Assembly (NCBI GenBank): GCA_902580855.1 | Contig: CACHMF010000004.1 | Span: forward strand, 1 to 57,419 | DNA: 57,419 nt | Direction: 5' to 3' | Origin: an uncultured Bacteroidota bacterium | GTDB taxonomy: Bacteria > Bacteroidota > Bacteroidia > Flavobacteriales > UBA7312 | In this document: positions 1,351-15,228 of the stretch, in pieces | Position numbering within the stretch: the first letter of the stretch is position 1 | How the letters are laid out: each line of letters starts with the position of its first letter | Translations under genes and position numbers: made by a program | Notes under the pieces: model-generated | Told to the model about the DNA's origin: nothing | Databases searched by the model: none | Seen by the model: only the letters and a program-made list of their open reading frames with translations

Positions 1351-1967
1351 GAAATCATAAAGAAAATATTGGATTAGCACTATTAATAATTATCAATATA
1401 GTAGGTGTTGTTGGATTTCGTTCAGATTGTCTTTTGCCTTATTTTAAATCATTAACTCCATTTAATCTGCTTTTCTCTCTTTTGATCTGCTTTTTCTACC
1501 TTCCATGGAGATCCTTTATTTCTATTTTTCTTCTTCTATTTTCTATAGGTTTTGGTGTAGAGTTTCTAGGTGTAAAAACAGGCCTTCTTTTTGGAAGTTA
1601 TGAATACGGTTCTACACTGGGTTTTAAATGGTATAACGTTCCTTTAATTATTGGCGTAAATTGGTTTGTACTTGCAATAGGAGCAAGAGGGTGTGCGAAC
1701 CGTATTACTGAAAATACTATCTTCCAAGTTTTGTGTGCTGCTTTATTTATGGTAGGATTAGATTATTTTATTGAACCTGTGGCTATGAAATATGACTTTT
1801 GGGACTGGTCTCAAAACAAAGTTCCACTGCAAAATTATTTTATGTGGTTTCTTGTTTCTATATTGATGCAAATTTTGTTGAATAAAAGGAGCATACAAAT
1901 ACCCTTTTCACTTGCATTTGCTATACTAATCTCGCAATTCATTTTTTTCGGAGCCTTATTATTATGA
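1347..1967 (+). CDS. cruF: Carotenoid 1',2'-hydratase CruF (DUF422 / carotenoid biosynthesis family)
   Basis: Integral membrane protein of 206 aa with about six hydrophobic segments. The motif EFLGVKTGLLFGSYEYG followed by VPLIIGVNWF, and later a PVAMKYDFWDW segment, are characteristic of the CruF/DUF422 family. This family hydrates the terminal psi-end of acyclic or monocyclic carotenoids to give a 1'-hydroxyl group. The ATG overlaps the crtD stop (ATGA) and its own stop overlaps crtYcd by 4 nt, giving a tightly coupled crtD-cruF-crtYcd unit. The combination predicts a myxol- or saproxanthin-like monocyclic carotenoid with a 1'-hydroxy-3',4'-didehydro end. The end product is inferred from pathway knowledge. 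Confidence 0.85.
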   Translation: MRNHKENIGLALLIIINIVGVVGFRSDCLLPYFKSLTPFNLLFSLLICFFYLPWRSFISIFLLLFSIGFGVEFLGVKTGLLFGSYEYGSTLGFKWYNVPLIIGVNWFVLAIGARGCANRITENTIFQVLCAALFMVGLDYFIEPVAMKYDFWDWSQNKVPLQNYFMWFLVSILMQILLNKRSIQIPFSLAFAILISQFIFFGALLL

Positions 1968-2674
1968 TAGATTGGTTAGACACTAGGCACTACTATTTAC
2001 TTTTAATGCTATTAAGTATCAGTTACCCCTTTATTAGAAGTTTTGAAAATAAGATAAGTTTCTATAAAAACTGGAAGGCTTTAGCATTGGCCATAACACT
2101 TATGATGATGATTTTTATTACGTGGGATGTTATTTTCACAACTCTTTCGGTATGGTCATTTAATGACAGGTATATTTTAGGGTACAAGCTTTTGAGTTTA
2201 CCCATTGAAGAGTGGATGTTTTTTGTTTGTGTACCTTATTCATGTATATTTATTCATGAAGTATTAAATTATTTCTTTCCACTAAAAAAAATCAATATAA
2301 ATATACATAGGTGGAATTATTGGGTTGCATTACTGTTAATTGTTATCGGAGTTGTATGTTGGAGCAAAATATATACCTGTGTTTGTTTTACACTTACAGG
2401 TCTATTTTTGTTATTGTTACAACGAAAAAATACTCAACTAATAGCAGTAACATATCGTACTTTTATAGTGAGTCTAATACCTTTTTTTATTGTTAACGGG
2501 ATATTGACAGGAGCATTAACAGATGAGCCAATCGTAATGTATAATAATTTACAAAACACTATGATCAGAATAATCACAATTCCTATTGAAGATTTTGTTT
2601 ATTGCTTATTTATGCTCGGGTTAACGATTTGGATTTACGAATCACAAAAAAAGAGGATAAAATCTAAACCTTAG
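1964..2674 (+). CDS. crtYcd: Lycopene beta-cyclase, fused two-domain CrtYcd type
   Basis: A 236-aa membrane protein made of two tandem lycopene-cyclase domains. The first half carries FNDRYILGYK and LPIEEWMFF, and the second half repeats the motif as IPIEDFVYC. The paired P-x-E-(E/D) motifs after a transmembrane helix are the hallmark of the heterodimeric CrtYc/CrtYd type fused into one chain, as found in Bacteroidota and archaea. It cyclises a psi-end of lycopene to a beta-ring. It overlaps cruF by 4 nt and is the last gene of the carotenoid operon. The next gene starts 20 nt later from its own promoter. Confidence 0.87.
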   Translation: MIDWLDTRHYYLLLMLLSISYPFIRSFENKISFYKNWKALALAITLMMMIFITWDVIFTTLSVWSFNDRYILGYKLLSLPIEEWMFFVCVPYSCIFIHEVLNYFFPLKKININIHRWNYWVALLLIVIGVVCWSKIYTCVCFTLTGLFLLLLQRKNTQLIAVTYRTFIVSLIPFFIVNGILTGALTDEPIVMYNNLQNTMIRIITIPIEDFVYCLFMLGLTIWIYESQKKRIKSKP

Positions 2675-2682
2675 CTTTTTAT

Positions 2683-2690
2683 TATTTTTG
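2683..2690 (+). promoter_or_regulatory. Bacteroidota -7 box (TATTTTTG) for the GT4 gene
   Basis: Perfect match to TAnnTTTG, starting 9 nt after the crtYcd stop. Only 4 nt separate it from the ATG at 2695, so transcription should begin at or within a base or two of the start codon (leaderless mRNA). No clear -33 TTTG was found. Confidence 0.55.
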
Positions 2691-2694
2691 CAGC

Positions 2695-3732
2695 ATGGCT
2701 AAAAGGCAAAAGGTTTTTTTAGGTGCATATGTCAATAGTATAAATGCGCAAAACTTAAATTGCAGAGCTCTAGCACTACATTTAGATTCGAAAAGATTTA
2801 AATGTAGTGCAATGGAGTTACAAACAGGAGAATTATCTTCCCTTTCTGGTTCAATAAAAATTTTTAAAGTATGCTGGCCACATCGGCTTAACAAGTATAC
2901 CTCCTACCTAAGAGGTATTTTATGGGCGGACGTAGTATATCTGCCCAAAAGAGAAGTGTCAAGATGGTGTCGATTTTTATGTTGGTTATTCAAAAAGCCA
3001 AGTTTTAGCACTATGGAAAGTGTTGACGAGGGGGCAAACTGGGATAAACAGCTAAAAAAATTTGGAAATAAAATAGCATACTTGAGACACTACAAGGGAT
3101 TTAACAAGCTTTTTGCAATAAGTAAATTTATTTCTAATAAAAATGCAGATTTACATGAAATAAGTTTCGATGGTTTGTTGCCTTTGGGAGTGGATTCAAC
3201 TTCTTTTGATAGCAATATTAAAAAAGAACTTCAATCAGTAATTTTAATAGGGAATAACTTATACTATAAAGGTTGGCGATTTTATTTACAGTTAGCTACG
3301 GCATTTCCGACTATCACTTTTCATGTGGTAGGAAGTGGGGTAGGATTGGTTGACCCGAAAAAAGAAAGTCAACATCTAAACAATGTTGTTTGTCATGGAC
3401 GGTGCACACATCACGAGCTAAACGAAATTCTTAAAACTGTAGATCTTCATATTTTGCCCTCTAGAAACGAAGGCTTCCCAAAAGTAGTTTTAGAATGTGC
3501 GGCTGCAGGTATTCCTAGTTTACTTTTTTCAGATTATGGAGCAAAAGAATGGATGGAAGGAGGCTTTGTAGTTGAAAAGAATGAAGAAATGAAGCAAATA
3601 ATTAATTTGCTATTACAGGATCCAAATCGTCTGTGTCAAGCATCAAGCCAGTCAATACTACTAGCAGAAAAGTATGATTGGAAACATGTTGTAAAGCATT
3701 GGGAAGAAGTATTGAGCAGCTTAAGTCCTTAA
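2695..3732 (+). CDS. Glycosyltransferase family 4 (GT-B fold)
   Basis: A 345-aa retaining glycosyltransferase-like protein without signal peptide. The N-terminal half is divergent. The C-terminal half is a typical Glycos_transf_1 domain: SVILIGNNLYYKGWRF (approx. residues 180-195), FHVVGSG, and the nucleotide-sugar binding E-x7-E segment in PSRNEGFPKVVLECAAAGIP (approx. 255-275). Substrate and acceptor cannot be read from the sequence. It follows the carotenoid operon directly, so glycosylation of a hydroxylated carotenoid is one possibility. Its own promoter argues for an independent role, for example in cell-surface polysaccharide synthesis. The start ATG has no Shine-Dalgarno, consistent with leaderless expression. 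Confidence 0.85.
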   Translation: MAKRQKVFLGAYVNSINAQNLNCRALALHLDSKRFKCSAMELQTGELSSLSGSIKIFKVCWPHRLNKYTSYLRGILWADVVYLPKREVSRWCRFLCWLFKKPSFSTMESVDEGANWDKQLKKFGNKIAYLRHYKGFNKLFAISKFISNKNADLHEISFDGLLPLGVDSTSFDSNIKKELQSVILIGNNLYYKGWRFYLQLATAFPTITFHVVGSGVGLVDPKKESQHLNNVVCHGRCTHHELNEILKTVDLHILPSRNEGFPKVVLECAAAGIPSLLFSDYGAKEWMEGGFVVEKNEEMKQIINLLLQDPNRLCQASSQSILLAEKYDWKHVVKHWEEVLSSLSP

Positions 3733-3735
3733 AGG

Positions 3736-3799
3736 AGTTCAAAGCTTAATTTAATAAGCCCCATCATTTTCTTAACTTTGCGTTTATAAGCTTTGAACT
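3736..3799. repeat. Perfect 13-bp inverted repeat bracketing the surface-operon promoter
   Basis: Left arm 3736-3748 (AGTTCAAAGCTTA) and right arm 3787-3799 (TAAGCTTTGAACT) are exact reverse complements separated by 38 bp. The spacer holds the -7 box at 3773-3780, so the right arm falls at the expected transcript start or early leader. This could be a dimeric regulator site forming a loop, or an RNA structure ending read-through from the upstream gene. Confidence 0.6.
3773..3780 (+). promoter_or_regulatory. -7 box (TAACTTTG) of the T9SS/CotH/VTC operon
   Basis: Perfect TAnnTTTG match 47 nt before the ATG at 3828 and inside the 38-bp spacer of the inverted repeat at 3736-3799. It predicts transcript start near 3785. 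No obvious -33 TTTG at the expected distance. Confidence 0.5.
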
Positions 3800-3827
3800 A
3801 CTAAAAGGTTTTTAGAAAAATCAATCT

Positions 3828-5354
3828 ATGAAATTAGCCAACAATCTATTAATTGCAATAATAATGTTGCTTTTTAATTCGGCTTATTCCCAAACCATAG
3901 GAGAGTCTTCAGTTTATTTTATGTACTCTCCATTGCAAAGTAGTACCACCTATTTAGTAGATACTGATGGGGTAGTATATCATACATGGGATTGTATTGC
4001 TAGCCCAGCTAGTACAGCATATCTTCTTCCTGATGGAAGTATTATTCGACCGTATAGAGTTAGTAGCCCAACTATGATGGGAGGAGCAACAGGTGGTGGA
4101 ATGCAGCGTATAGATTGGAACGGAAATGTTATATGGGACTACACTTGGTCTGATCCTAATCATCAACAGCACCACGAGTGTATTCCAATAGATCAAGGAA
4201 ATGGGAATTATAATGTGTTAATTATTTCTTGGGAGCGAAAAAGTAATGTAGAAGCTATTCAAGCTGGGCGTCAAAATGTAAATGGAGAAATGTGGCCCTT
4301 AGAAATTTTAGAAATAGAGCCTCAAGGAAATAATGGTGGGAATGTTGTTTGGGAATGGCATGCTTGGGATCACCTTTGTCAAGATATTGATTCTACAAAA
4401 GATAACTATTATATAGATTGTTCGTTACATCCAGAACTTATAGATGTGAATATTGGAACATTACCAAGTGGAGGGCCGTTAGGAGGCAGTGGAGACTGGA
4501 TACACGCTAATGGTATTGATTATTGTCCAGAACTTGATCAAATTGTTTTCAGCTCTCATAAGCTACATGAAATATTTGTAATTGACCATAGTACTACAAT
4601 TAATGAGTCAGCGAGCCATAGCGGAGGAAATTCTGGGATGGGAGGAGATATCTTATATCGTTGGGGCAATCCTCAAAATTATGGAGCAGGAACAGCAGCA
4701 GACCAAATTCTTCATGTAGTTCATAGTGCTAACTTTATCGATACTGGATATCCAGGAGAGGGCAATATATTAATGTTTAATAACGGAGATAGAAGCGGTT
4801 CTCAAAATGACTATTCTTCGGTTGAAGAAATAACAGCTCCTTTGAGCGGATATACCTATAATCTACCGTATAACCAAAGTCAGCATTGGATGTACTCTAA
4901 TGGCGGGACATTTTATTCAAATCATTTATCAGGAGCCTTCAGGTTAAAAAACGGCAATACATTAGCAACAGAAGGAACTTCGGGAAGAATTTCCGAAATT
5001 GACAATAATGGAAATATTATTTTTCAATACACTCATCAAGGCGGAGGAAGTAACATGGCTAAAGCGGTTCCATATGAGAAGGATTATGAAGGAATATTGG
5101 GTTTAGCAACAGGTGTTTCGACTCATGAGAAACAAGTATATCACATATATCCAAACCCGGCAAATCATTTTATTCAGCTTTCAACAGATGAGGAAGGTGA
5201 ACTTAAAATTATAGATTTTCTAGGGAAAGTGAGCCATGTAGAATCATTTAAGAAAAGTAGCCGTATAAATATAGAGAATTTACCCAGTGGTGTTTATTAC
5301 ATACAATTGCAAACAACAGAACATTTGTACACAAAATCCCTTATTATTCAATAA
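3828..5354 (+). CDS. Secreted arylsulfotransferase (ASST)-like protein with T9SS sorting domain
   Basis: 508 aa. A signal peptide (residues 1-21) ends before Gln22. The body is a beta-propeller-like arylsulfotransferase fold with segments typical of the family: GDWIHANGIDY (about residue 230), LHVVHSANFI and ILMFNNGDRSG (about 295-320), then LSGAFRLKNGNTLATEG followed by GRISEID. Histidines in the first two segments correspond to the conserved His positions of the family, which transfers sulfate between phenolic esters. The last about 75 residues are a T9SS type A sorting domain (YPNPA, then IIDFLGK, then LPSGVYYIQL, ending KSLIIQ), so the protein is predicted to be cell-surface attached or secreted. 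First gene of a seven-gene operon; its TAA overlaps the next ATG by one base (TAATG). Actual sulfotransfer is unproven, as many propeller proteins of this family are uncharacterised. Confidence 0.8.
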   Translation: MKLANNLLIAIIMLLFNSAYSQTIGESSVYFMYSPLQSSTTYLVDTDGVVYHTWDCIASPASTAYLLPDGSIIRPYRVSSPTMMGGATGGGMQRIDWNGNVIWDYTWSDPNHQQHHECIPIDQGNGNYNVLIISWERKSNVEAIQAGRQNVNGEMWPLEILEIEPQGNNGGNVVWEWHAWDHLCQDIDSTKDNYYIDCSLHPELIDVNIGTLPSGGPLGGSGDWIHANGIDYCPELDQIVFSSHKLHEIFVIDHSTTINESASHSGGNSGMGGDILYRWGNPQNYGAGTAADQILHVVHSANFIDTGYPGEGNILMFNNGDRSGSQNDYSSVEEITAPLSGYTYNLPYNQSQHWMYSNGGTFYSNHLSGAFRLKNGNTLATEGTSGRISEIDNNGNIIFQYTHQGGGSNMAKAVPYEKDYEGILGLATGVSTHEKQVYHIYPNPANHFIQLSTDEEGELKIIDFLGKVSHVESFKKSSRINIENLPSGVYYIQLQTTEHLYTKSLIIQ

Positions 5355-6418
5355 TGAAAAAGATAATATTTATTATTCCATTCTTGTTGTGCTTTCAAAA
5401 AGTAAAGGCACAATCCATAATATTACCTGAATTAAATTTAGCAACCTCATTTTATTTTGATCAATGGGTACTAAGCTCAGATACCTTTTTTGTAGCACCT
5501 GTTTATATTGACACCTATCTAGATTTTAATGAATTTCATTTAAATATTAAATATAACCATAATGTAGTAGAGCCCTTAATTAGTGAGTTAAACCAAATCA
5601 ATGACGATAGCTATATTATGGTTGCCAACTATATGGGTTTTGCTGATTTTGCAATGGTTAGTGGAGGTAATATTACTGGTGTAGTGAACACTATAAATGC
5701 GTCACAATCACTTCTAACCTTGTCGTTTAACGGAAGTACTGCCGCACAAACATTGTTTAATTCTTGTAATGGGAACTTATTATATTTAGCTTTTAAAAAG
5801 GTTAATCCTTGCTTCAAAGGGCCTTTTTATTTGCAGTTTTGGAATGGAGATGATAATGGAGCCTTTATCAATCCAAACCAAACACATGCATGTCAAATTA
5901 TCGGGACAACAACTACCCACTCTACAGAAACTGGAAATCTTTTAGCGGTCCAAGGAGAGGTTACTTTTGATATCCCACAAGCAAATATTCAGTTAAATGG
6001 AAATATTTTAGAAGCATTTGTAGTAGGTGGTTCATTGCCGCTATCTTATGAATGGTCTGACAAGTTTGGAACGGTGTTAGGGAGTAGTTATGATTACTCT
6101 CCGATTGATACGGGAATGGTTGTACTAACTGTCATAGATGCAGATGGATGCATGAGTGTCACAAGCCATAATTTTTATTTTTCTTCAAGCACTATTAATG
6201 AGGAAAATAGCTTTCAGACTATATATCCAAACCCTTCAGGGGGTATAATTCATTTGCAGAAAGAGATAGACAGAGTTGTGGTCTTAAATACAATGGGGAA
6301 CGTATGTTATTTAGGAAAAGAAAAAGTTATAGATTTAACATCATTTCAGAAAGGAGTTTATTTGATTCAAACAACAAGAAATAATTACACAACAACCGAA
6401 AAAATAATATTGCATTGA
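5354..6418 (+). CDS. T9SS-secreted protein with cohesin-like N-terminal domain
   Basis: 354 aa. The signal peptide ends KVKA before Gln20. Residues about 20-180 form a beta-rich domain resembling cohesin/Ig-like folds (a VAPVYIDTYLDFNEFHLNI segment and later NLLYLAFKKVNPCFKG), but the assignment is weak. Residues about 195-275 look like a PKD/SprB-type repeat (LPLSYEWSDKFG, then VVLTVIDADGCMSV). The C-terminus is a T9SS type A domain (YPNPSGG, then VVLNTMGN, then FQKGVYLIQ, ending EKIILH). It overlaps its neighbours by 1 and 4 nt and is probably translated together with the CotH gene. It may be a surface scaffold or binding partner; no enzymatic motif is visible. Confidence 0.65.
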   Translation: MKKIIFIIPFLLCFQKVKAQSIILPELNLATSFYFDQWVLSSDTFFVAPVYIDTYLDFNEFHLNIKYNHNVVEPLISELNQINDDSYIMVANYMGFADFAMVSGGNITGVVNTINASQSLLTLSFNGSTAAQTLFNSCNGNLLYLAFKKVNPCFKGPFYLQFWNGDDNGAFINPNQTHACQIIGTTTTHSTETGNLLAVQGEVTFDIPQANIQLNGNILEAFVVGGSLPLSYEWSDKFGTVLGSSYDYSPIDTGMVVLTVIDADGCMSVTSHNFYFSSSTINEENSFQTIYPNPSGGIIHLQKEIDRVVVLNTMGNVCYLGKEKVIDLTSFQKGVYLIQTTRNNYTTTEKIILH

Positions 6419-8637
6419 TAAAGAAATATGTTTGGGCCTTATTGGTTCTTTGTTGGGGACATGCACATACACAATCATTGTACGATAACACCAATGTTAC
6501 GACAATTGAAATCTTCTTTTCCACCTCTAATTGGGATCAGATTTTAGACAATTATTATGCCGCAGGCATGGATCAGAGGTTAATTGCTGATTCAGTTGTG
6601 ATTAATGGAAGCATGAAGGACAGTGTTGGAGTGAAGTATAAAGGTAACAGCACTTACAATGCTAACAATGATAAAAATCCATTAAACCTGTCTTTAGACT
6701 ATATCAAAGGAAATCAAGATTATCAAGGGTTTAGAACTATTAAGCTATCTAATGGAAAAAATGATCCATCTTTTATTCGAGAAGTTCTTTCTTATGAAAT
6801 AGCGCGAAAATATATGGTGGCCCCGCAATCTAATTTTGCAGAGGTGCATATTAACGGGAATTATCACGGAATGTATGTTAATTCAGAGTCTATAAATTCT
6901 GACTTTCAAGATGATTATCTCTACGCTGATCGAGACAATACGCGCTTTAAGTGCAATCCGGAAACTGTCTTTGGAGGCAACGGCTCTTCTTTAGAATACT
7001 TAGGAACCGACTCTGCTTTTTACGAAGATTATTATGAGTTGAAGTCTGATTTTGGTTGGCAAGATTTAATCAACCTTACATATGATATAGTTAATAATCC
7101 ATTAAACTTAGAATCTTCATTAGATATTGATAGAGCATTATGGATGTTAGCATTTAACAATGTCCTGGTGAACCTTGATAGCTATACAGGGCCTTTCCGT
7201 CAGAATTATTACTTAATAAAAGATAATAATAATCGAATGAACCCGATTATTTGGGATTTAAATGAGTGTTTAGGCGGTTTTGAAATGATTAATAATGGAG
7301 GAGGCCCTCCCTCGCTTCAAAATTTAATCCAACTTGACCCTTTAATTAGAATCAATGAAGCTGACTGGCCACTAATACAAACACTACTGAATAATGACAC
7401 TTATCAGCGAATGTATATAGCGCATATGCGAACAATTCTAGAAGAGAATTTTTCAAATGGACTATACCTAACAAGAGCCAACGATTTACAATCTCTAGTG
7501 AGTAGCTTGATTCAGGCAGATGCTAATTCGTTTTATTCTTTTAACGATTTTTCAAATAATATTAATAATTCTGTTGGTGGAGGTCCTAGTGGCTCAGTAG
7601 GAATTACAGAATTGATGGATGCTAGAACAAATTTTTTACAATCACATTCTTTGTTTTTAGTTGCTCCACCTAGTATTGGAGCAGTGTCATCAACTCCATT
7701 ACAAATAAACCCTTACACTGAACCATTTATTACGGTAGATGTTAGTAATGCCACAAATGTATATTTAGCCTATAGGTTTAGGCCACAAGATGTATTTACA
7801 AAACTCGAAATGTTTGATGATGGAATGCATGGAGATGGAAGTGCAGGAGATGGGATTTATGGTATAGATGTTATGGTAGACGCTAGAGATATGCAGTATT
7901 ACATTTATGCTGAAAACAATGATGCAGGAGTATTTTCTCCAGAAAGGGCAGAGCATGAATATCATTATCTTCCTGTTGTTAGCGATTTAGTAATCAACGA
8001 GTTAATGGCGTCTAATATGAATGCGGTAGCAGATCAAAATGGAGAATATGATGATTGGGTAGAGTTATACAATAACGGCACAAACTCAATCATGCTAGAT
8101 GGCTATTTTCTTTCTGATAATGAAAATAATCTAGGTAAATGGCAATTTCCTAACACAGTCCTTCCATCTGGAGGATACTTAACAGTTTGGCTTGATGGAC
8201 AGGATGGATTACAAGCAGGTTTACACACAAGTTTTAAACTATCTGCTGATGGAGAGGAACTGTTTTTGTCAACCCCAACTTTAGACGTGGTCGATGCTAT
8301 TTTTTACACAGCTCTCCCTACAGACATGTCGTTTGCTCGTGTTCCAAACGGAACAGGCCCTTTTACAGTTCAGGCACATACAAACAATGCTAATAACAAT
8401 GGGGTGCTAGAGGTTTTACATTTAGAAAATGAAGTTCTTCTTTATCCAAATCCAACACAGTCAACAATAACAATTGAGCATCCTTCGATAGAAAAGATTG
8501 CTATTTATGATGTGATGGGGAAGTTAATGCATCTAGAAAAATCATACGAAACAACAACAATAAATTGCGAGCATTGGCCTGCAGGAATGTATATTGTAAA
8601 AGTAGGAACTCAAGCACATCGTTTAATTATTCAATAA
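6415..8637 (+). CDS. CotH-type kinase with lamin-tail domain and T9SS sorting signal
   Basis: 740 aa. A signal peptide ends HAHT before Gln20. The CotH kinase domain spans about residues 28-400: GVKYKGNSTYN (about 72-82), FRTIKLSNGKNDPSFIREVL (about 106-125), NLDSYTGPFRQNYYL with Asp255, and IIWDLNECLGGF with Asp281. The last two are the conserved Asp positions that bind metal in CotH kinases. CotH enzymes are atypical protein kinases that phosphorylate surface proteins such as spore coat components. Residues about 525-650 are a lamin-tail domain (VINELMASN, then DDWVELYNNG). The end is a T9SS domain (YPNPTQSTI, then IYDVMGK, then PAGMYIVKV, ending RLIIQ). The only usable start is TTG at 6415, overlapping the previous stop by 4 nt, so translation is probably coupled. 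Kinase activity and target are inferred. Confidence 0.85.
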   Translation: MIKKYVWALLVLCWGHAHTQSLYDNTNVTTIEIFFSTSNWDQILDNYYAAGMDQRLIADSVVINGSMKDSVGVKYKGNSTYNANNDKNPLNLSLDYIKGNQDYQGFRTIKLSNGKNDPSFIREVLSYEIARKYMVAPQSNFAEVHINGNYHGMYVNSESINSDFQDDYLYADRDNTRFKCNPETVFGGNGSSLEYLGTDSAFYEDYYELKSDFGWQDLINLTYDIVNNPLNLESSLDIDRALWMLAFNNVLVNLDSYTGPFRQNYYLIKDNNNRMNPIIWDLNECLGGFEMINNGGGPPSLQNLIQLDPLIRINEADWPLIQTLLNNDTYQRMYIAHMRTILEENFSNGLYLTRANDLQSLVSSLIQADANSFYSFNDFSNNINNSVGGGPSGSVGITELMDARTNFLQSHSLFLVAPPSIGAVSSTPLQINPYTEPFITVDVSNATNVYLAYRFRPQDVFTKLEMFDDGMHGDGSAGDGIYGIDVMVDARDMQYYIYAENNDAGVFSPERAEHEYHYLPVVSDLVINELMASNMNAVADQNGEYDDWVELYNNGTNSIMLDGYFLSDNENNLGKWQFPNTVLPSGGYLTVWLDGQDGLQAGLHTSFKLSADGEELFLSTPTLDVVDAIFYTALPTDMSFARVPNGTGPFTVQAHTNNANNNGVLEVLHLENEVLLYPNPTQSTITIEHPSIEKIAIYDVMGKLMHLEKSYETTTINCEHWPAGMYIVKVGTQAHRLIIQ

Positions 8638-8639
8638 TA

Positions 8640-9044
8640 ATGAAGAAAGGAATCACAATACTCAGCCTACTAATTCTTGTTGCAGCGTGCGACAAGCCTT
8701 CAGGGGAAGGAGGAACTTCTTCCATCGAAGGTAAAATTTTAGTTCTAGAAGGGTTTTATAATGTATTTACTCAGAGTTTTGATACAACAGCATTGTATTT
8801 TTCTGAAAATGAAGACGTCTATATTATTTACGGAAGCGATTCATCCAGTATATATAACGATTCATTTGAAACATCTTGGGATGGAACGTATCGATTCGAT
8901 TATTTGCGCAAAGGAAACTATGTGCTGTACGCATACAGTGATTGTGATAGTTGCCCATCAGGCAAAGAGCCTGTTTTTTGGGAGGTAACGATTGACAAAA
9001 ACAATCAATTATATCAGATTTCGGATCAAGTAATACGCAAGTAA
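8640..9044 (+). CDS. Small lipoprotein of unknown function
   Basis: 134 aa. The start chosen is ATG at 8640, 2 nt after the CotH stop, because it begins a typical lipoprotein signal (MKKGITILSLLILVAAC, lipobox LVAAC at residues 13-17). An upstream in-frame ATG at 8565 would lie inside the CotH gene and bury the signal. After the lipid-modified Cys comes a Gly/Ser-rich stretch and a small beta-rich domain. Near the C-terminus YSDCDSCPSGKEP holds a CxxC pair. I do not recognise the family; the domain looks transthyretin/carboxypeptidase-regulatory-like (YRFDYLRKGNYVLYAY), which is tentative. Being between CotH and VTC genes, it probably serves the same surface system. Confidence 0.7.
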   Translation: MKKGITILSLLILVAACDKPSGEGGTSSIEGKILVLEGFYNVFTQSFDTTALYFSENEDVYIIYGSDSSSIYNDSFETSWDGTYRFDYLRKGNYVLYAYSDCDSCPSGKEPVFWEVTIDKNNQLYQISDQVIRK

Positions 9045-9045
9045 A

Positions 9046-9786
9046 TTGAGCGAATTAATTAAGCAAATATCGTTATTTGAACCTATATCATTGTCGGAGA
9101 TGGACAGTGTGAAGCTAATGAATCGTTCCGATACGAAATTCGTTTTTTCAAACCAAACGCTCTTGCAAATATTACCAAAACTACAAGGATACTATCGAGT
9201 TCTAGAAATTGAAAACATACGCTTAAGCTCGTATCAATCGTTATATTATGACACCGAAGATTTTCAATTTTACCACCAACATCACAATGGTAAAACCAAC
9301 AGAAACAAGGTTCGCTATAGAGAATATATAGATTCTGGAATTTCTTTCCTTGAGGTTAAGCATAAAAACAATAAAGGCAAAACGATCAAAAAGCGCATTC
9401 CTGTAAATGCGATTCAAGAAATGTTAGAGGGGGATCATCAATCTTTTGTTGATGAGGTGATAGGAGAAAATCTTAACCTAATACCTCAACACAGAAATAA
9501 ATTTCAACGGCTTACATTAGTGCACAAAATCAATAAAGAACGCCTGACAATTGATATTAACTTTCAATATCAAAACACGATTAAACAAGGCGGGGTTGAA
9601 CAGTTGGTAATTGCCGAAGTTAAACAAGAAAAGAAGAGTCGATCTTCAGATTTTATAAGAATTATTAAAGAAGCGGGCGTTCATCCTTTTAGGATCAGCA
9701 AATACTGTATTGCTACAGCCAGTTTATACACAGAATTAAAAAGGAATAATTTCAAAATGAAATTTTTACATTTAAACAAAATTTAA
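9046..9786 (+). CDS. Polyphosphate polymerase (VTC) domain protein
   Basis: 246 aa, cytoplasmic, belonging to the VTC/triphosphate-tunnel fold family. Charged strand residues expected to line the tunnel are present: NRSDTKFVF (about 25-33), VRYREY (about 92), FLEVKHKNNKGKTIKKR (about 104-120), KFQRLTL, LTIDIN, VIAEVKQE and a late SKYC segment. In yeast Vtc4 this fold polymerises ATP phosphate into polyphosphate; related tunnel enzymes hydrolyse triphosphates instead. The start is TTG at 9046, one base after the lipoprotein stop. The gene lies between a secreted CotH kinase and a DUF4956 membrane protein, a neighbourhood seen repeatedly for this family. The reaction in this organism is unknown. 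Confidence 0.85.
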   Translation: MSELIKQISLFEPISLSEMDSVKLMNRSDTKFVFSNQTLLQILPKLQGYYRVLEIENIRLSSYQSLYYDTEDFQFYHQHHNGKTNRNKVRYREYIDSGISFLEVKHKNNKGKTIKKRIPVNAIQEMLEGDHQSFVDEVIGENLNLIPQHRNKFQRLTLVHKINKERLTIDINFQYQNTIKQGGVEQLVIAEVKQEKKSRSSDFIRIIKEAGVHPFRISKYCIATASLYTELKRNNFKMKFLHLNKI

Positions 9787-9790
9787 AATA

Positions 9791-10432
9791 ATGAACGAGT
9801 TATTGTTATTGCTAACAGATTTAGAAATATTCGGAACGGATTTTTTCGATAAAAAAGATTTTTTTGAGTTACTGATAAAGGCTGTTTTTAACTTTTTTAT
9901 CATTGCCTATATCGTTCGCTATTTATATTACCCAGCAACAAAAAACAAAGATTATCTATTTACCTATTTATTGATTAGTATCACGGTATTCTTTCTTTGT
10001 TTCTTGCTAGAAAATGTGAAGTTACAACTAGGGTTTGCGCTAGGTCTTTTCGCCATCTTTGGGATTATTCGCTATCGAACAGATCCTATTCCAATTAAAG
10101 AGATGACTTATTTGTTTATTGTGATTGGAGTTTCTGTAATAAACGCTTTAGCAAACAAAAAAATCAGTCATTCCGAGTTACTATTTGCAAACTTTATAAT
10201 CATAGCTGTCACCTACGGGTTGGAAAAAATATGGTTATTGCGACACGAAACACGCAAAACCATTACCTATGAAAAAATAGAGCTTATCAAACCTTCAAAG
10301 AAAGAAGAATTGATGGCAGACTTAAAGGAACGAACAGGACTAAATATCACGCGCATAGAGGTGCGTAGAATAGATTTTTTAAGAGATACGGCTCAAATAA
10401 GAATCTTCTTTTTCGAAGATGAAAAAGCTTAG
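9791..10432 (+). CDS. DUF4956 membrane protein
   Basis: 213 aa with about four transmembrane segments in residues 25-150, then a basic cytoplasmic C-terminal domain. The signature GFALGLFAIFGIIRYRTD (about residues 79-96) followed by IPIKEMTYLF identifies DUF4956. The C-terminal part (LKERTGLNITRIEVRRIDF) resembles the small ferredoxin-like domain of this family. It starts 4 nt after the VTC gene and ends inside the DUF2490 gene (14-nt overlap). DUF4956 proteins often pair with VTC-domain proteins. A plausible role is membrane partner or channel for the VTC product, analogous to the membrane part of eukaryotic VTC complexes; this is inference. Confidence 0.83.
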   Translation: MNELLLLLTDLEIFGTDFFDKKDFFELLIKAVFNFFIIAYIVRYLYYPATKNKDYLFTYLLISITVFFLCFLLENVKLQLGFALGLFAIFGIIRYRTDPIPIKEMTYLFIVIGVSVINALANKKISHSELLFANFIIIAVTYGLEKIWLLRHETRKTITYEKIELIKPSKKEELMADLKERTGLNITRIEVRRIDFLRDTAQIRIFFFEDEKA

Positions 10433-11048
10433 CATATTATGTTGCTTGTTGCCGCTCTTTGCGATTGGTCAAGATGATTTTCAACTTTGGTCTAAAGTAG
10501 AATTAGGATATAAAATCAACAAAAAGGTATCCGTAGAGCTTACAGAAGGATTTCGTTTAAGAGAAAACGCATCTCTTCCATCTAAAACATTTACAGATTT
10601 TAACGCTACCTATAAGCATAACAAAAAAGTAAGAATAGGAACGGGTTATCGTTTCATTCAGGTTTTCAACCTTGCACAAGACATTCATTTGCGACATCGT
10701 TGGTATGTCTATATGACATTGAGACAAAAAGTAAAAAGATATCAATTTGGCTTTCGTTCTCGTATACAACACCAAAAAGGAGTTGATCATTTAGAGCGAT
10801 ATTATAGAGGGAAAATATCGGCTTCTTATAATTTCCGAAAAACACCTCTGGAGCCAACTATTTCTATAGAGTCTTTCCTGAATTTACAATCTCCCCAATT
10901 TGATAAATTTCGCTACACGGCAGCTCTTTCATATCCGTTACGTAAAAAAGTGCAAGCAAGCTTATATTACCGTATTCAGCAAGAAATTAATGTGTCTTTC
11001 CCTAATACGTTTTACATATTAGGCGCAGGGGTTTCTTACAATTTTTAA
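10419..11048 (+). CDS. DUF2490 family outer-membrane beta-barrel candidate
   Basis: 209 aa. The signal peptide ends FAIG before Gln18. The remainder is a regular series of amphipathic beta strands with alternating aromatic and charged residues (DFQLWSKVELGYKI, VRIGTGYRFIQ, YQFGFRSRIQHQ, ending ILGAGVSYNF with terminal Phe), typical of outer-membrane barrels and of DUF2490. It overlaps DUF4956 by 14 nt and is the last gene of the operon. Context suggests an outer-membrane component of the CotH/VTC/DUF4956 system. Confidence 0.78.
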   Translation: MKKLSILCCLLPLFAIGQDDFQLWSKVELGYKINKKVSVELTEGFRLRENASLPSKTFTDFNATYKHNKKVRIGTGYRFIQVFNLAQDIHLRHRWYVYMTLRQKVKRYQFGFRSRIQHQKGVDHLERYYRGKISASYNFRKTPLEPTISIESFLNLQSPQFDKFRYTAALSYPLRKKVQASLYYRIQQEINVSFPNTFYILGAGVSYNF

Positions 11049-11100: not shown

Positions 11101-11108
11101 TAAATTTG
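11101..11108 (+). promoter_or_regulatory. -7 box (TAAATTTG) of the C25 protease gene
   Basis: Perfect TAnnTTTG 23 nt before the ATG at 11132. It overlaps the alternative GTG start at 11108, which supports the downstream ATG as the real start. Confidence 0.5.
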
Positions 11109-11131
11109 TGGCAATAAATTTTTTAAGTACT

Positions 11132-14100
11132 ATGAAAAAGAGAATTGGGATATTTATAGCAGTATTATTAAGTTCTTTAGTTTCTGCACAACAGATTACG
11201 TTTAATTCAGAAACAAATGATGTTGTTTTAACAGCTAATACAGAACAGTATTTTGAAGTTTTTTCTGGCATTCAATCAATAGAGTCTATTAATGTTAACA
11301 CATCTGAGGGGATTTTTACAAAACTGATTCTTCCTGGATACGTCCATTCGAAAGAATTCGGTAAGCCTGAGCTTCCTCAAATACAAAAACTTATAGAAAT
11401 TCCATTTGGGGCAGAAATAAAAACAGACATTTTAGCGTATGAAAAACAAACGCTATTACTTTCAGATTATGGCATTGTAAACCCATTAATACCATCTCAG
11501 CCGTCTATATCAAAAGCAGAGGATGCCGCTAATGTTCCGTTTAAATATTATCCACAGATATATCAACAAAATGAATTTTTAGGAAAAGAAATTGTTACCG
11601 TAGAACCTTTAGGAGTATTAAGAGGTGTTCAAATGGCAAGATTAACAATAGCTCCATTTAAATATAACCCAGTAACAAACGAGTTAATGGTGTTTAACAA
11701 TCTTGAGGTTCAAGTAGATTTTGGCGATGCTGACTATGAAGAAACAGTAATTCAGAAGCAAAAACATTATTCAGCAGCTTTTAATCCAAGCTATTTAGAG
11801 CTTTTAAACTACAAGCCGTTAGCTAAAGATGTTATCACAACATATCCGGTTAAATATGTTATTGTTTCTGACCCGATGTTTCAATCCGACCTACAAGGTT
11901 TTGTGGAATGGAAAACGAAAAAAGGATTCACGGTCGTTGAAGCTTATACGAACGATCCTGCAGTAGGAAATACAACAACTTCTATTAAAGCATATTTAGA
12001 AGGACTTTATAATGCAGGGTCACCTTCTGATCCAGCTCCATCTTATGTATTATTTGTTGGTGATGTGGCACAAGTACCTTCTTTTAGCGGAAATACTGGC
12101 TGGCATGTTTCAGACTTGTATTATTGTACTTATGATGGGCCTTCGGATATTTATCCAGACATGTATTATGGTAGGTTCTCAGCAACAAATTCTTCACAGC
12201 TAATGCCTCAGATAGAAAAGACACTAATGTTTGAGGAGTACACCTTTCCAGACCCTTCTTATTTAGATGAAGTTTTATTGGTTGCAGGTGTAGATGCTAG
12301 CATGGCACCTACTTATGGCAATGGACAAATAAATTATGGAACTGACAACTATTTTAATTCCGCGCATGGAATAACATCGCATATTTATTTATATGGTTCG
12401 GGAAGTCCAGTAACTTCAGATCAATCCATAGCATCAGGACTTATTATTGATGATGTAAATAATGGAGTTGGCTTTGCTAATTATACAGCGCATTGTTTTG
12501 AGCAAGGATGGGCAGACCCCTCATTTGAATCTAGTGATGTCCCTGGATTAACAAATGAAAATGAATATTGCGTAATTGTTAGTAATTGCTGCTTACCAAA
12601 TGCCTTTGATAATGCAGAATGTTTTGGAGAAGCGATTTTAAGAGCTCACGGTAAAGGTGCAGTTGGACACATTGGAGGATCTAACAATACTTATTGGAAT
12701 GAAGATTATTGGTGGGCAGTCGGAACAGGTTCAATCTCAGCAAATCCTACTTATACTCAAACAGGTCTTGGTGTTTTTGATTGCCTGTTTCATGAAAATG
12801 GTGAGCCAGTTTCTGACTGGTTTGTTAGCTTATCTCAAATGGTACATTCAGGAAACCTTGCTGTTACAGCAGCGGGAGGATCAGAAGATTATTATTGGGA
12901 AATATACCATGTAATGGGTGATCCATCTTTAATGCCTTATATGTCAGTCCCAGACCCTATGACAGTAACGCACTTAGCAACAACTCCTCTAGGATCCTCA
13001 ACATTAAATGTGTCAGCAGAAGAAAATGCATATGTAGCTGTTTCTCAAAATGGCATCTTATTAGACGCTCAGTTAGTGGGAGCTAGCGGAAATGTAACAA
13101 TGACTTTTGCCCCACTTGCTTCTATGGGAGTGTTAGATGTAGTGGTAACAAAGCAAGACCGTCAGCCTTACATTGGAGCAGTTCAGGTTATATCCACAAA
13201 CGCGCCATTTATTACAGCGATTTCTTATCAGATTGATGATGCAGCGGCGAATAACAATCAACTCGCTGATTTTAACGAACAATTTTATTTGGACGTAGAT
13301 TTTCAAAACCTAGGCAGTATAACTGCATCAGGTGTTACAGCTACTCTTACCTCTTCAGATCCTAATGTTACGATTATTGATGGGGTAGAAAATCTAAATA
13401 CTATAACATCTTCAACAACCATAAATGCAACTGGTGCATATGAACTAGCAATTGCCGACGGTATTCAAGATCAACACATTGTAGTGATGGATGTTGCTAT
13501 TACAGATAATGCGTCCAATACTTGGAACGTACCAATCAACATTGTTGTAAATGCTCCTGAACTTAATGTTGGAGGTTTTGAATTGATAGATGCTTCAGGT
13601 AACGGGATTTTAGAGCCCGGAGAAACAGCAACCATCAATATTGAAAATTTTAATGATGGATCTGCTGACTGTGGTAGTTCTGACGCTATTTTAAGTACAA
13701 CAAACATGTATGTTAGTATCACTTCCTCATCATATAACTTTATTAGTTTCCCTCAAGGAGGCACAATGCAGCAAGCATCGTTTACTATCCAGGCAGACGC
13801 AAACATTCCTTATGCAACTGCTGTAACATTTGATTACGATTTATCATTTGGTCTTTATAATGCACAAGAGTCTTTTGACATTATAGCTAATATGGCTAGT
13901 GAAGATTATGAAACAGGCAATATGTTGCAATATGATTGGTCTGTTTCAGGAAATGCTCCTTGGCTTATTGTTGGAACAGGGCAGTTTGAAGGTGATCATT
14001 GTGCGAAATCTGGTCCAATTGGAGGTAATCAAGTGTCTACTATGGAATTAGAATTAAATGTAGCAGTGCCTGGCGAGGTATCATTTTATAAAAAGGTTTC

Positions 14101-14566
14101 TACAGAAGACGGATATGATTATTTGCAATTTTATATTGATAATACCTTAAGAGATGAGTGGTCGGGTGTAATAGATTGGTCAAAAGAATCTTATTTTTTA
14201 ACATCTGGAGTTCATACACTAAAATGGGAATATGTAAAAGATGGTTGGGTAGATGAAAATGATGATTGTGCATGGGTAGATTATATACTATTCCCTCAAT
14301 TAGTTTCAAGTACTGATATAGAAGATCAATTAACATTTGATGTTCAGATTACACCCAACCCCGCATCAAATCAATGCTCTATAAATTTTGATAAAATGGT
14401 TGACGCAAGAGTTCAATTATACGACACGCAAGCGCGATTGATTCTAGAAAAGAATACGGCTGGAGAATCAATTTTATTGAATTTAAGTAATTTAGCAACA
14501 GGTGTATACTATTTAGAGATACATTCAGAGGAAGATAAAATTGTAGAAAAGCTAATAATCAAATAG
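11132..14566 (+). CDS. Gingipain-like C25 cysteine protease with T9SS sorting domain
   Basis: 1144 aa from ATG 11132, chosen because it begins a clean signal peptide (MKKRIGIFIAVLLSSLVSA before Gln20) and the upstream GTG lies in the promoter box. Residues about 40-230 resemble the C25 propeptide. The caspase-like protease domain spans about 235-600. It contains FVGDVAQVP, DLYYCTYDG, DMYYGRFSA, the catalytic His region FANYTAHCFEQGWADP, and the catalytic Cys region VIVSNCCLPNAF followed by CFGEAIL and GHIGGSNNTYWNEDYWW. The classical gingipain GHG is replaced by AHC, with His kept. Then come CARDB/Ig-like repeats (about 690-910), a jelly-roll/MAM-like domain (about 920-1050) and a T9SS CTD (ITPNPASNQ, LYDTQAR, ATGVYYLEI, ending KLIIK). 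It probably degrades external proteins. The stop overlaps the next GTG by one base. Confidence 0.9.
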   Translation: MKKRIGIFIAVLLSSLVSAQQITFNSETNDVVLTANTEQYFEVFSGIQSIESINVNTSEGIFTKLILPGYVHSKEFGKPELPQIQKLIEIPFGAEIKTDILAYEKQTLLLSDYGIVNPLIPSQPSISKAEDAANVPFKYYPQIYQQNEFLGKEIVTVEPLGVLRGVQMARLTIAPFKYNPVTNELMVFNNLEVQVDFGDADYEETVIQKQKHYSAAFNPSYLELLNYKPLAKDVITTYPVKYVIVSDPMFQSDLQGFVEWKTKKGFTVVEAYTNDPAVGNTTTSIKAYLEGLYNAGSPSDPAPSYVLFVGDVAQVPSFSGNTGWHVSDLYYCTYDGPSDIYPDMYYGRFSATNSSQLMPQIEKTLMFEEYTFPDPSYLDEVLLVAGVDASMAPTYGNGQINYGTDNYFNSAHGITSHIYLYGSGSPVTSDQSIASGLIIDDVNNGVGFANYTAHCFEQGWADPSFESSDVPGLTNENEYCVIVSNCCLPNAFDNAECFGEAILRAHGKGAVGHIGGSNNTYWNEDYWWAVGTGSISANPTYTQTGLGVFDCLFHENGEPVSDWFVSLSQMVHSGNLAVTAAGGSEDYYWEIYHVMGDPSLMPYMSVPDPMTVTHLATTPLGSSTLNVSAEENAYVAVSQNGILLDAQLVGASGNVTMTFAPLASMGVLDVVVTKQDRQPYIGAVQVISTNAPFITAISYQIDDAAANNNQLADFNEQFYLDVDFQNLGSITASGVTATLTSSDPNVTIIDGVENLNTITSSTTINATGAYELAIADGIQDQHIVVMDVAITDNASNTWNVPINIVVNAPELNVGGFELIDASGNGILEPGETATINIENFNDGSADCGSSDAILSTTNMYVSITSSSYNFISFPQGGTMQQASFTIQADANIPYATAVTFDYDLSFGLYNAQESFDIIANMASEDYETGNMLQYDWSVSGNAPWLIVGTGQFEGDHCAKSGPIGGNQVSTMELELNVAVPGEVSFYKKVSTEDGYDYLQFYIDNTLRDEWSGVIDWSKESYFLTSGVHTLKWEYVKDGWVDENDDCAWVDYILFPQLVSSTDIEDQLTFDVQITPNPASNQCSINFDKMVDARVQLYDTQARLILEKNTAGESILLNLSNLATGVYYLEIHSEEDKIVEKLIIK

Positions 14567-15228
14567 TGAAAAAAACCGTATTCATATTATTTTTATCATT
14601 AGTATCGAGCTCACTTAGTGCTCAGTCAATTTTTCAAACGCTTTTTACTTCTACTGATGAGCAGGGACAGCTAGGTAGTATGACAGAAATCACGGGTTTA
14701 GTTATCAATAACGACTGTTGTACAGTAACTAAGTTTATACAACACTTAACTTCTTGTGAAATGCCATCTGATTGGCTATGGAGTCATTGCACCCCTGATA
14801 TGTGCTTGCCAACAGGAGATTCGCTAGGGTATTATTATTTAATGCCATCTGATACAGGCGAAGTATCCTTTCGTTTTTATGTGGGGAACACACCGGGGTC
14901 AGCCGAAATGAACATAAGATTTGCTGACAGGGACAATCTATCGGATTATCAGGATGTCCAATTTACCGTTTGGGCAGGCACTAGTGATTTGCAAGAATCT
15001 AATTGGCAACTTCTCATTTACCCCAATCCAGTGAATAATTTCATTCATATTGATGGAGACATTTCAGATCTAACTTGCGATCTTTTTGATGTAAGAGGTA
15101 AAAATTTGTTAAGCTCACTGAATGTGGAAGGAAGAAAGATAAATGTATCAAACATTCAACCAGGAGTATATTTTCTAGCCTTACACAAGCCCGGTGGAAG
15201 GCTAATTAAACGCATCATCATTCAGTAG
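14566..15228 (+). CDS. Small Cys-rich T9SS type A sorting-domain protein
   Basis: 220 aa. Start is GTG at 14566, sharing a base with the C25 stop (TAGTG), so it is translationally coupled to the protease. The signal peptide ends SLSA before Gln20. The N-terminal domain (about 20-140) is beta-rich with a cluster of cysteines (NNDCCTVTKF, HLTSCEM, SHCTPDMCLP), likely disulfide bonded. The C-terminal about 75 residues are a T9SS domain (YPNPVNNFI, LFDVRGK, IQPGVYFLAL, ending RIIIQ). I do not recognise the N-terminal family. Coupling to the protease suggests a partner, inhibitor or accessory adhesin; this is inference. Confidence 0.75.
   Translation: MKKTVFILFLSLVSSSLSAQSIFQTLFTSTDEQGQLGSMTEITGLVINNDCCTVTKFIQHLTSCEMPSDWLWSHCTPDMCLPTGDSLGYYYLMPSDTGEVSFRFYVGNTPGSAEMNIRFADRDNLSDYQDVQFTVWAGTSDLQESNWQLLIYPNPVNNFIHIDGDISDLTCDLFDVRGKNLLSSLNVEGRKINVSNIQPGVYFLALHKPGGRLIKRIIIQ

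Follow-up and report, generated by a model that had tools for sequence, protein, structure and literature searches.

Closest described systems

Genes for a CotH kinase, a polyphosphate polymerase and a DUF4956 protein adjoin pel in streptococci, clostridia and bifidobacteria (PMC7112168), and the authors of a 2025 study did not find this trio outside pel (PMC12345266). Here we describe a seven-gene operon at positions 3828-11048 of contig CACHMF010000004.1 (assembly GCA_902580855.1), from an uncultured Bacteroidota bacterium of the Flavobacteriales (UBA7312); the 57,419 nucleotides analysed are referred to as the window. PelG is absent from ten genomes of the window's family, and the Bacteroidota operon, which is not linked to pelDEADAFG, is therefore a case of the trio outside pel. 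The original prediction that CotH, VTC and DUF4956 genes recur together in many bacteria had been anticipated by reports on pel operons in 2020 and 2025. To our knowledge, which covers the literature in part so that earlier reports may exist, the version with type IX secretion system (T9SS) and outer-membrane components and its pel-free distribution are new.

We tentatively read the operon as a Bacteroidota envelope system in which VTC and DUF4956 would synthesize polyphosphate, together with outer partners and a surface CotH, and we assign this reading a probability of about 0.45. Like the Gram-positive pel accessory genes (PMC7112168; SIR_1592-1594, PMC12345266), it brings together three families, namely a secreted CotH, a tunnel enzyme and a membrane protein with an ACT-like end. 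Unlike them, it has no pel, its CotH carries a lamin tail and is exported as T9SS cargo, and DUF2490, lipoprotein and ASST-like (arylsulfotransferase fold) genes are added. With the yeast VTC complex, in which the polymerase Vtc4 is joined by the membrane parts Vtc3/Vtc1, the operon shares the tunnel-domain fold, a polymerase-type site and a membrane protein, here encoded next door, but a Pfam scan of the 246-aa VTC protein gave no SPX domain and the membrane partner is a DUF4956 protein, whose fold gave no detectable match to the VTC channel. The CotH protein resembles the Bacillus spore-coat kinases (5jd9/5jda) in having a kinase domain whose catalytic Asp residues are conserved, but it is exported by the T9SS to the cell surface, is fused to a lamin tail and has no part in sporulation. 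The VTC/CotH cluster of the Gram-positive C. perfringens (NELoc-2, PMC2879425) holds a pair of VTC genes, with a gene for a short membrane-located protein behind each of them, and then CotH; the membrane protein, annotated as tubulin/FtsZ, is possibly a DUF4956 protein.

That the trio accompanies pel in Gram-positives would also suit an operon for modifying an exopolysaccharide or a glycan of the surface, to which either CotH or the ASST-like protein would transfer phosphate or sulfate, as the streptococcal pel-linked genes may do. A GT4 glycosyltransferase gene directly upstream, here and in some relatives (L064-L067), fits this proposal. We nevertheless hold it to be very improbable, given the lack of PelG in the family and an adjoining glycosyltransferase that has its own promoter-like element and does not lie beside the operon in most loci.

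Conservation of the gene linkage

The seven open reading frames all lie on the + strand, and their coordinates give junctions of -1, -4, +2, +1, +4 and -14 nt. All were present as predicted, and the recomputed gaps confirmed a contiguous set with spacing from -14 to +4 nt. A Pfam scan at curated cut-offs assigned ASST, CotH, lamin tail, VTC, DUF4956 and DUF2490 domains and three T9SS type A tails. We searched 60 loci of at most 20 kb from other Bacteroidia genomes and 80 named loci with profiles built up from the proteins of the operon. In 35 class-wide loci, picked by DUF4956 alone from stronger matches and for diversity, so that the fractions are not population estimates, the genes found within five genes of DUF4956 on the same strand were VTC (31/35), DUF2490 (23/35), the lipoprotein (15/35) and CotH (12/35). 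Among 24 loci of the order picked by VTC, DUF4956 was present in all 24, DUF2490 in 23, and the lipoprotein and CotH in 17 each. The CotH gene lies upstream in most loci and downstream in a few (L078, L083, L085, L096), and the full set of ASST, second cargo, CotH, lipoprotein, VTC, DUF4956 and DUF2490 also occurs outside the order (L093, L113, L114, L121). Protein distances among the core members correlate (r 0.64-0.85), which fits joint inheritance and also a shared species history, which was not removed.

The linkage of CotH, VTC, DUF4956, DUF2490 and lipoprotein genes thus extends beyond close relatives to many Bacteroidia families, and the operon core is a real, widely conserved envelope operon of the class. 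The gene set lies far beyond chance, since no more than three CotH genes and a single VTC gene are present in the genome and these neighbours are found together again in other families. Of the full set that had been proposed as linked, the core five genes hold; the ASST and second T9SS cargo genes are both optional. In several lineages an extra secreted protein of 160-200 aa with weak MORN/RHS-like repeats, a further and uncharacterised member of the operon, is encoded between the lipoprotein and VTC genes (L113:10926-11408; similar in L095, L099, L114, L116 and L120). Neighbours such as porU/porV/ispF or recG/pdh, recognized by eye from N-terminal sequence in many loci, were set aside as they look like housekeeping context and vary by lineage.

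The VTC-type enzyme

The fifth gene (9046..9786, +) starts with TTG, as does the CotH gene, and encodes a 246-aa VTC-type tunnel enzyme (PF09359, E 8e-28). A search of the PDB with the single sequence gave no match, but one with the family profile recovered Vtc2 and Vtc4. The AlphaFold (AF2) model has a pLDDT of 94.9, and in a fold search of the PDB its matches at ranks 1-13 are yeast VTC proteins (3g3r, E 1.2e-11), followed by ygiF, CYTH cyclases and thiamine triphosphatases. In a profile alignment K31, H79, R90, R92, K105, K115 or R117, R155, R166 and K219 align with the tunnel residues of Vtc4, whose numbering we take to be as assumed here, and E191 was matched by motif to Glu426 of metal site 1. 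The tunnel bases, E191 and K219 are kept in 40-42 of 42 sequences, and K219, the counterpart of the catalytic Lys458 of Vtc4, is invariant.

Vtc4 uses Lys458 as a catalytic residue, the counterpart of which is nearly dispensable in a plant triphosphatase; Vtc4 also has no acidic patch of the kind that binds a second metal in hydrolase-type tunnel enzymes (PMC4641920). In the window protein R27 and K193 occupy the positions of two of the four second-metal Glu residues by our own placement, in which the fourth position is uncertain. These two substitutions and the invariant K219 favour a polymerase-type reading, with D29 still acidic, and by sequence and model the protein is probably a polyphosphate polymerase. 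The original assignment as a polyphosphate maker therefore stands for the site itself (fold, tunnel bases, metal Glu and catalytic Lys), the second-metal acidic patch being only partly lost. No phage relatives of the enzyme were found.

Searches of ten genomes from the window's family, of which five are at least 90% complete, gave no match for PPK1 or PPK2; the genome that contains the window is itself 75% complete. VTC would be the sole polyphosphate route in this family, which would make it a clean test case. In the order, PPK1 is found in 1 of 49 genomes with VTC versus 93 of 147 others. A general replacement of PPK1 by VTC was rejected, as the order-level exclusion tracks family lines and coexistence is usual across the class. 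One complete genome of the order sample (G392) has VTC and no PPK1 in a mostly PPK1-positive family, and is possibly an independent PPK1/VTC swap.

DUF4956, the lipoprotein and DUF2490

The sixth gene (9791..10432, +) encodes a 213-aa DUF4956 membrane protein (PF16316, E 7e-57). Its AF2 model (pLDDT 78.5) places helices at 21-50, 53-74, 80-94, 102-119 and 127-148, followed by a cytosolic alpha/beta domain. The third and fourth helices are separated by a break at which the highly conserved R94, R96 and K103 are found, R96 being invariant and R94 nearly so. By analogy with the eukaryotic complex, DUF4956 might serve as a conduit for the polyphosphate chain.

The lipoprotein gene (8640..9044, +; 134 aa) starts at ATG 8640, with the lipobox LVAAC, rather than at the mechanically assigned TTG 8565. 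The protein is a conserved operon member without a Pfam match; in 29 homologues at the same operon position Cys17, G22, G24 and G31 are invariant and a DGxYxFxYLRKGxY motif is conserved. The last gene (10419..11048, +) encodes a 209-aa candidate outer-membrane barrel of the DUF2490 family (PF10677, E 2e-23), a putative porin family (TC 1.B.81) without known function (PMC4827864). The B. thetaiotaomicron genes BT3498-3499 (DUF4956, DUF2490) are included in a list of iron-response genes (PMC10434189). DUF4956, DUF2490 and the lipoprotein family, all uncharacterised, gain from the operon a common context and a testable job.

VTC and DUF4956 might instead form a signalling or regulatory pair, in which an ACT-like domain of DUF4956 senses a phosphate ligand that is bound or hydrolysed by the tunnel enzyme, and the two tune the export or assembly of surface adhesins and CotH substrates. 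DUF4956 has been described as a membrane part joined to an ACT domain, and in S. intermedius a DUF4956 mutant makes more Pel and a CotH mutant less, as expected of regulators (PMC12345266). The C-terminal alpha/beta domain of our model, with sub-threshold fold matches to ACT proteins, agrees with that description. We regard such a pair as doubtful, because the VTC site is by computation of the polymerase type, with basic residues apparently replacing most of the acidic patch, and because no other polyphosphate synthase was detected in the five near-complete family genomes.

CotH and the other T9SS cargo

The products of genes 1-3 carry a C-terminal PF18962/TIGR04183 tail above cut-off, as expected for the three T9SS cargoes that had been predicted. 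The T9SS component SprA was found in the window genome and in each of the nine relatives that were searched, and the cargoes therefore have an export machine. The third gene (6415..8637, +) encodes a 740-aa protein with a CotH-type kinase domain (PF08757, E 7.1e-38), a lamin tail (PF00932) and a T9SS tail (PF18962). Its profile matches the Bacillus structure 5jd9 (E 1.1e-31). Of the catalytic Asp residues, D255 is invariant and D281 is conserved at a level of at least 90%, and the catalytic Asp is presumably equivalent to B. subtilis D228 (PMC7821199). The genome encodes two other CotH-domain proteins, one of about 490 aa and one of more than 1000 aa with a lamin tail, and both genes (L202, G000:C54; L204, G000:C6) lie on contigs other than that of the sole VTC gene. 

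The first gene (3828..5354, +) encodes the ASST-like cargo of 508 aa (PF05935, E 1.4e-17; PF18962, E 2e-13). H226 aligns with the His of the HVN motif at position 356 of 3elq, and H115, H116, H226 and H299 are invariant in ten homologues. Compared with what we take to be the catalytic residues of E. coli ASST, the window protein has a His at the R374 position, and equivalents of H252 and H436 were not placed. The second gene (5354..6418, +; 354 aa) encodes a cargo for which PF18962 is the sole Pfam match; it comprises a weak cohesin-like domain and a further domain, and its best PDB profile match is the cellulosomal scaffoldin 3l8q (E 0.001). Its earlier description as cohesin-like T9SS cargo is borne out for the tail, the cohesin likeness consisting of weak profile matches. 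The slot is variable and holds no single family: the window and its close relatives have the weakly cohesin-like product, and other lineages have unrelated proteins instead, among them regulator-propeller proteins (L069, L093), an X25/CBM-like protein (L113) and, near CotH, a PorP/SprF-like membrane protein (L117).

Within the order, 14 of 55 ASST relatives lie within 12 kb of VTC, and we rejected ASST as a dedicated operon part because the other 41 are unlinked to it. This distribution, and VTC-DUF4956 pairs that often stand without CotH or cargo genes, would suit two functions that share an operon, with VTC-DUF4956 in cytosolic phosphate storage and the ASST, cohesin-like, CotH and DUF2490 genes as an unrelated, hitchhiking adhesion module. 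The recurrence of CotH and DUF2490 with VTC-DUF4956 in many families and in several gene orders speaks against such an arrangement, as does that of CotH-VTC-DUF4956 with pel in Firmicutes and bifidobacteria, and we judge it unlikely.

A proposed polyphosphate-based envelope system

In the envelope system that we favour, the VTC enzyme, located in the cytosol at the inner membrane, would most likely polymerise phosphate from ATP into polyphosphate in vivo. DUF4956 would hold it to the membrane and may feed the chain through to the periplasm, an analogy drawn from eukaryotic VTC. There the lipoprotein would be the partner, and in the outer membrane the DUF2490 barrel, while the CotH-lamin tail protein and the other T9SS cargoes, the ASST-like protein included, would act outside, CotH presumably phosphorylating co-exported surface proteins. 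In S. intermedius, deletion of the DUF4956 or CotH homologue alters Pel-dependent aggregation (PMC12345266), which we count in favour of this system.

Several observations weigh against it. The VTC homologue of S. intermedius is the only one of the three without a reported deletion phenotype (PMC12345266). VTC-DUF4956 often occurs without CotH, the lipoprotein or DUF2490, and the surface parts are thus not obligatory. A Foldseek search with the DUF4956 model gave nothing below E 0.001, the VTC channel included. D29 of the VTC protein is acidic in 42 of 42 sequences at a position where Vtc4, by our alignment, has no acidic residue. In the class-wide sample 100 of the 136 genomes with VTC also have PPK1 (odds ratio 0.49), and VTC is thus not a plain replacement of PPK. 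On balance, the idea of a cell-envelope phosphate machine put forward for this locus keeps its footing in the conserved linkage, the polymerase-type VTC and the catalytic Asp residues of CotH, and loses the ASST and second cargo genes as necessary parts.

A more elaborate version, in which polyphosphate is made and driven across the inner membrane by VTC-DUF4956 and then handed on by the lipoprotein and DUF2490 to the surface, as phosphate donor for the T9SS-exported CotH or for attachment to surface proteins, strikes us as quite improbable. If true, a hand-over of polyphosphate to exported CotH would solve the problem of missing ATP outside the cell. Export of this kind would also give bacteria an equivalent of the process by which eukaryotes couple polyphosphate synthesis to translocation, and would bear on kinases that work outside the cell.

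Promoter-like elements and neighbouring genes

In the region ahead of the operon (3720..3815, +) a TAnnTTTG element at 3773-3780 lies within an imperfect 29-nt inverted repeat, whose arms (3720-3748 and 3787-3815) are 79% complementary and which is possibly an operator or a stem of the 5' untranslated region. Similar TAnnTTTG-type elements (TTAACTTTG, TTATCTTTG, TTAAGTTTG) are found ahead of the operon's first gene in L062, L063, L065, L066 and L067. A second TAnnTTTG element, at 11101, directly precedes the downstream neighbour, which encodes a C25 (gingipain-type) protease bearing a T9SS tail. With promoter-like elements before gene 1 and before the C25 gene, the transcription unit probably ends at gene seven. 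The paired -33/-7 pattern (TTTG-N-TAnnTTTG) showed no enrichment within the window, and the promoter support for a seven-gene unit with these ends is therefore only suggestive.

Directly 5' of the operon, positions 1964-3732 hold a lycopene cyclase-domain gene followed by the GT4 glycosyltransferase gene. On the 3' side, at 11108-15228, the C25 protease gene is directly followed by a gene that encodes a T9SS cargo of 220 aa and begins with a GTG overlapping the stop codon of the protease gene; these two genes likely form a unit apart from the operon, with a TAnnTTTG element of its own.

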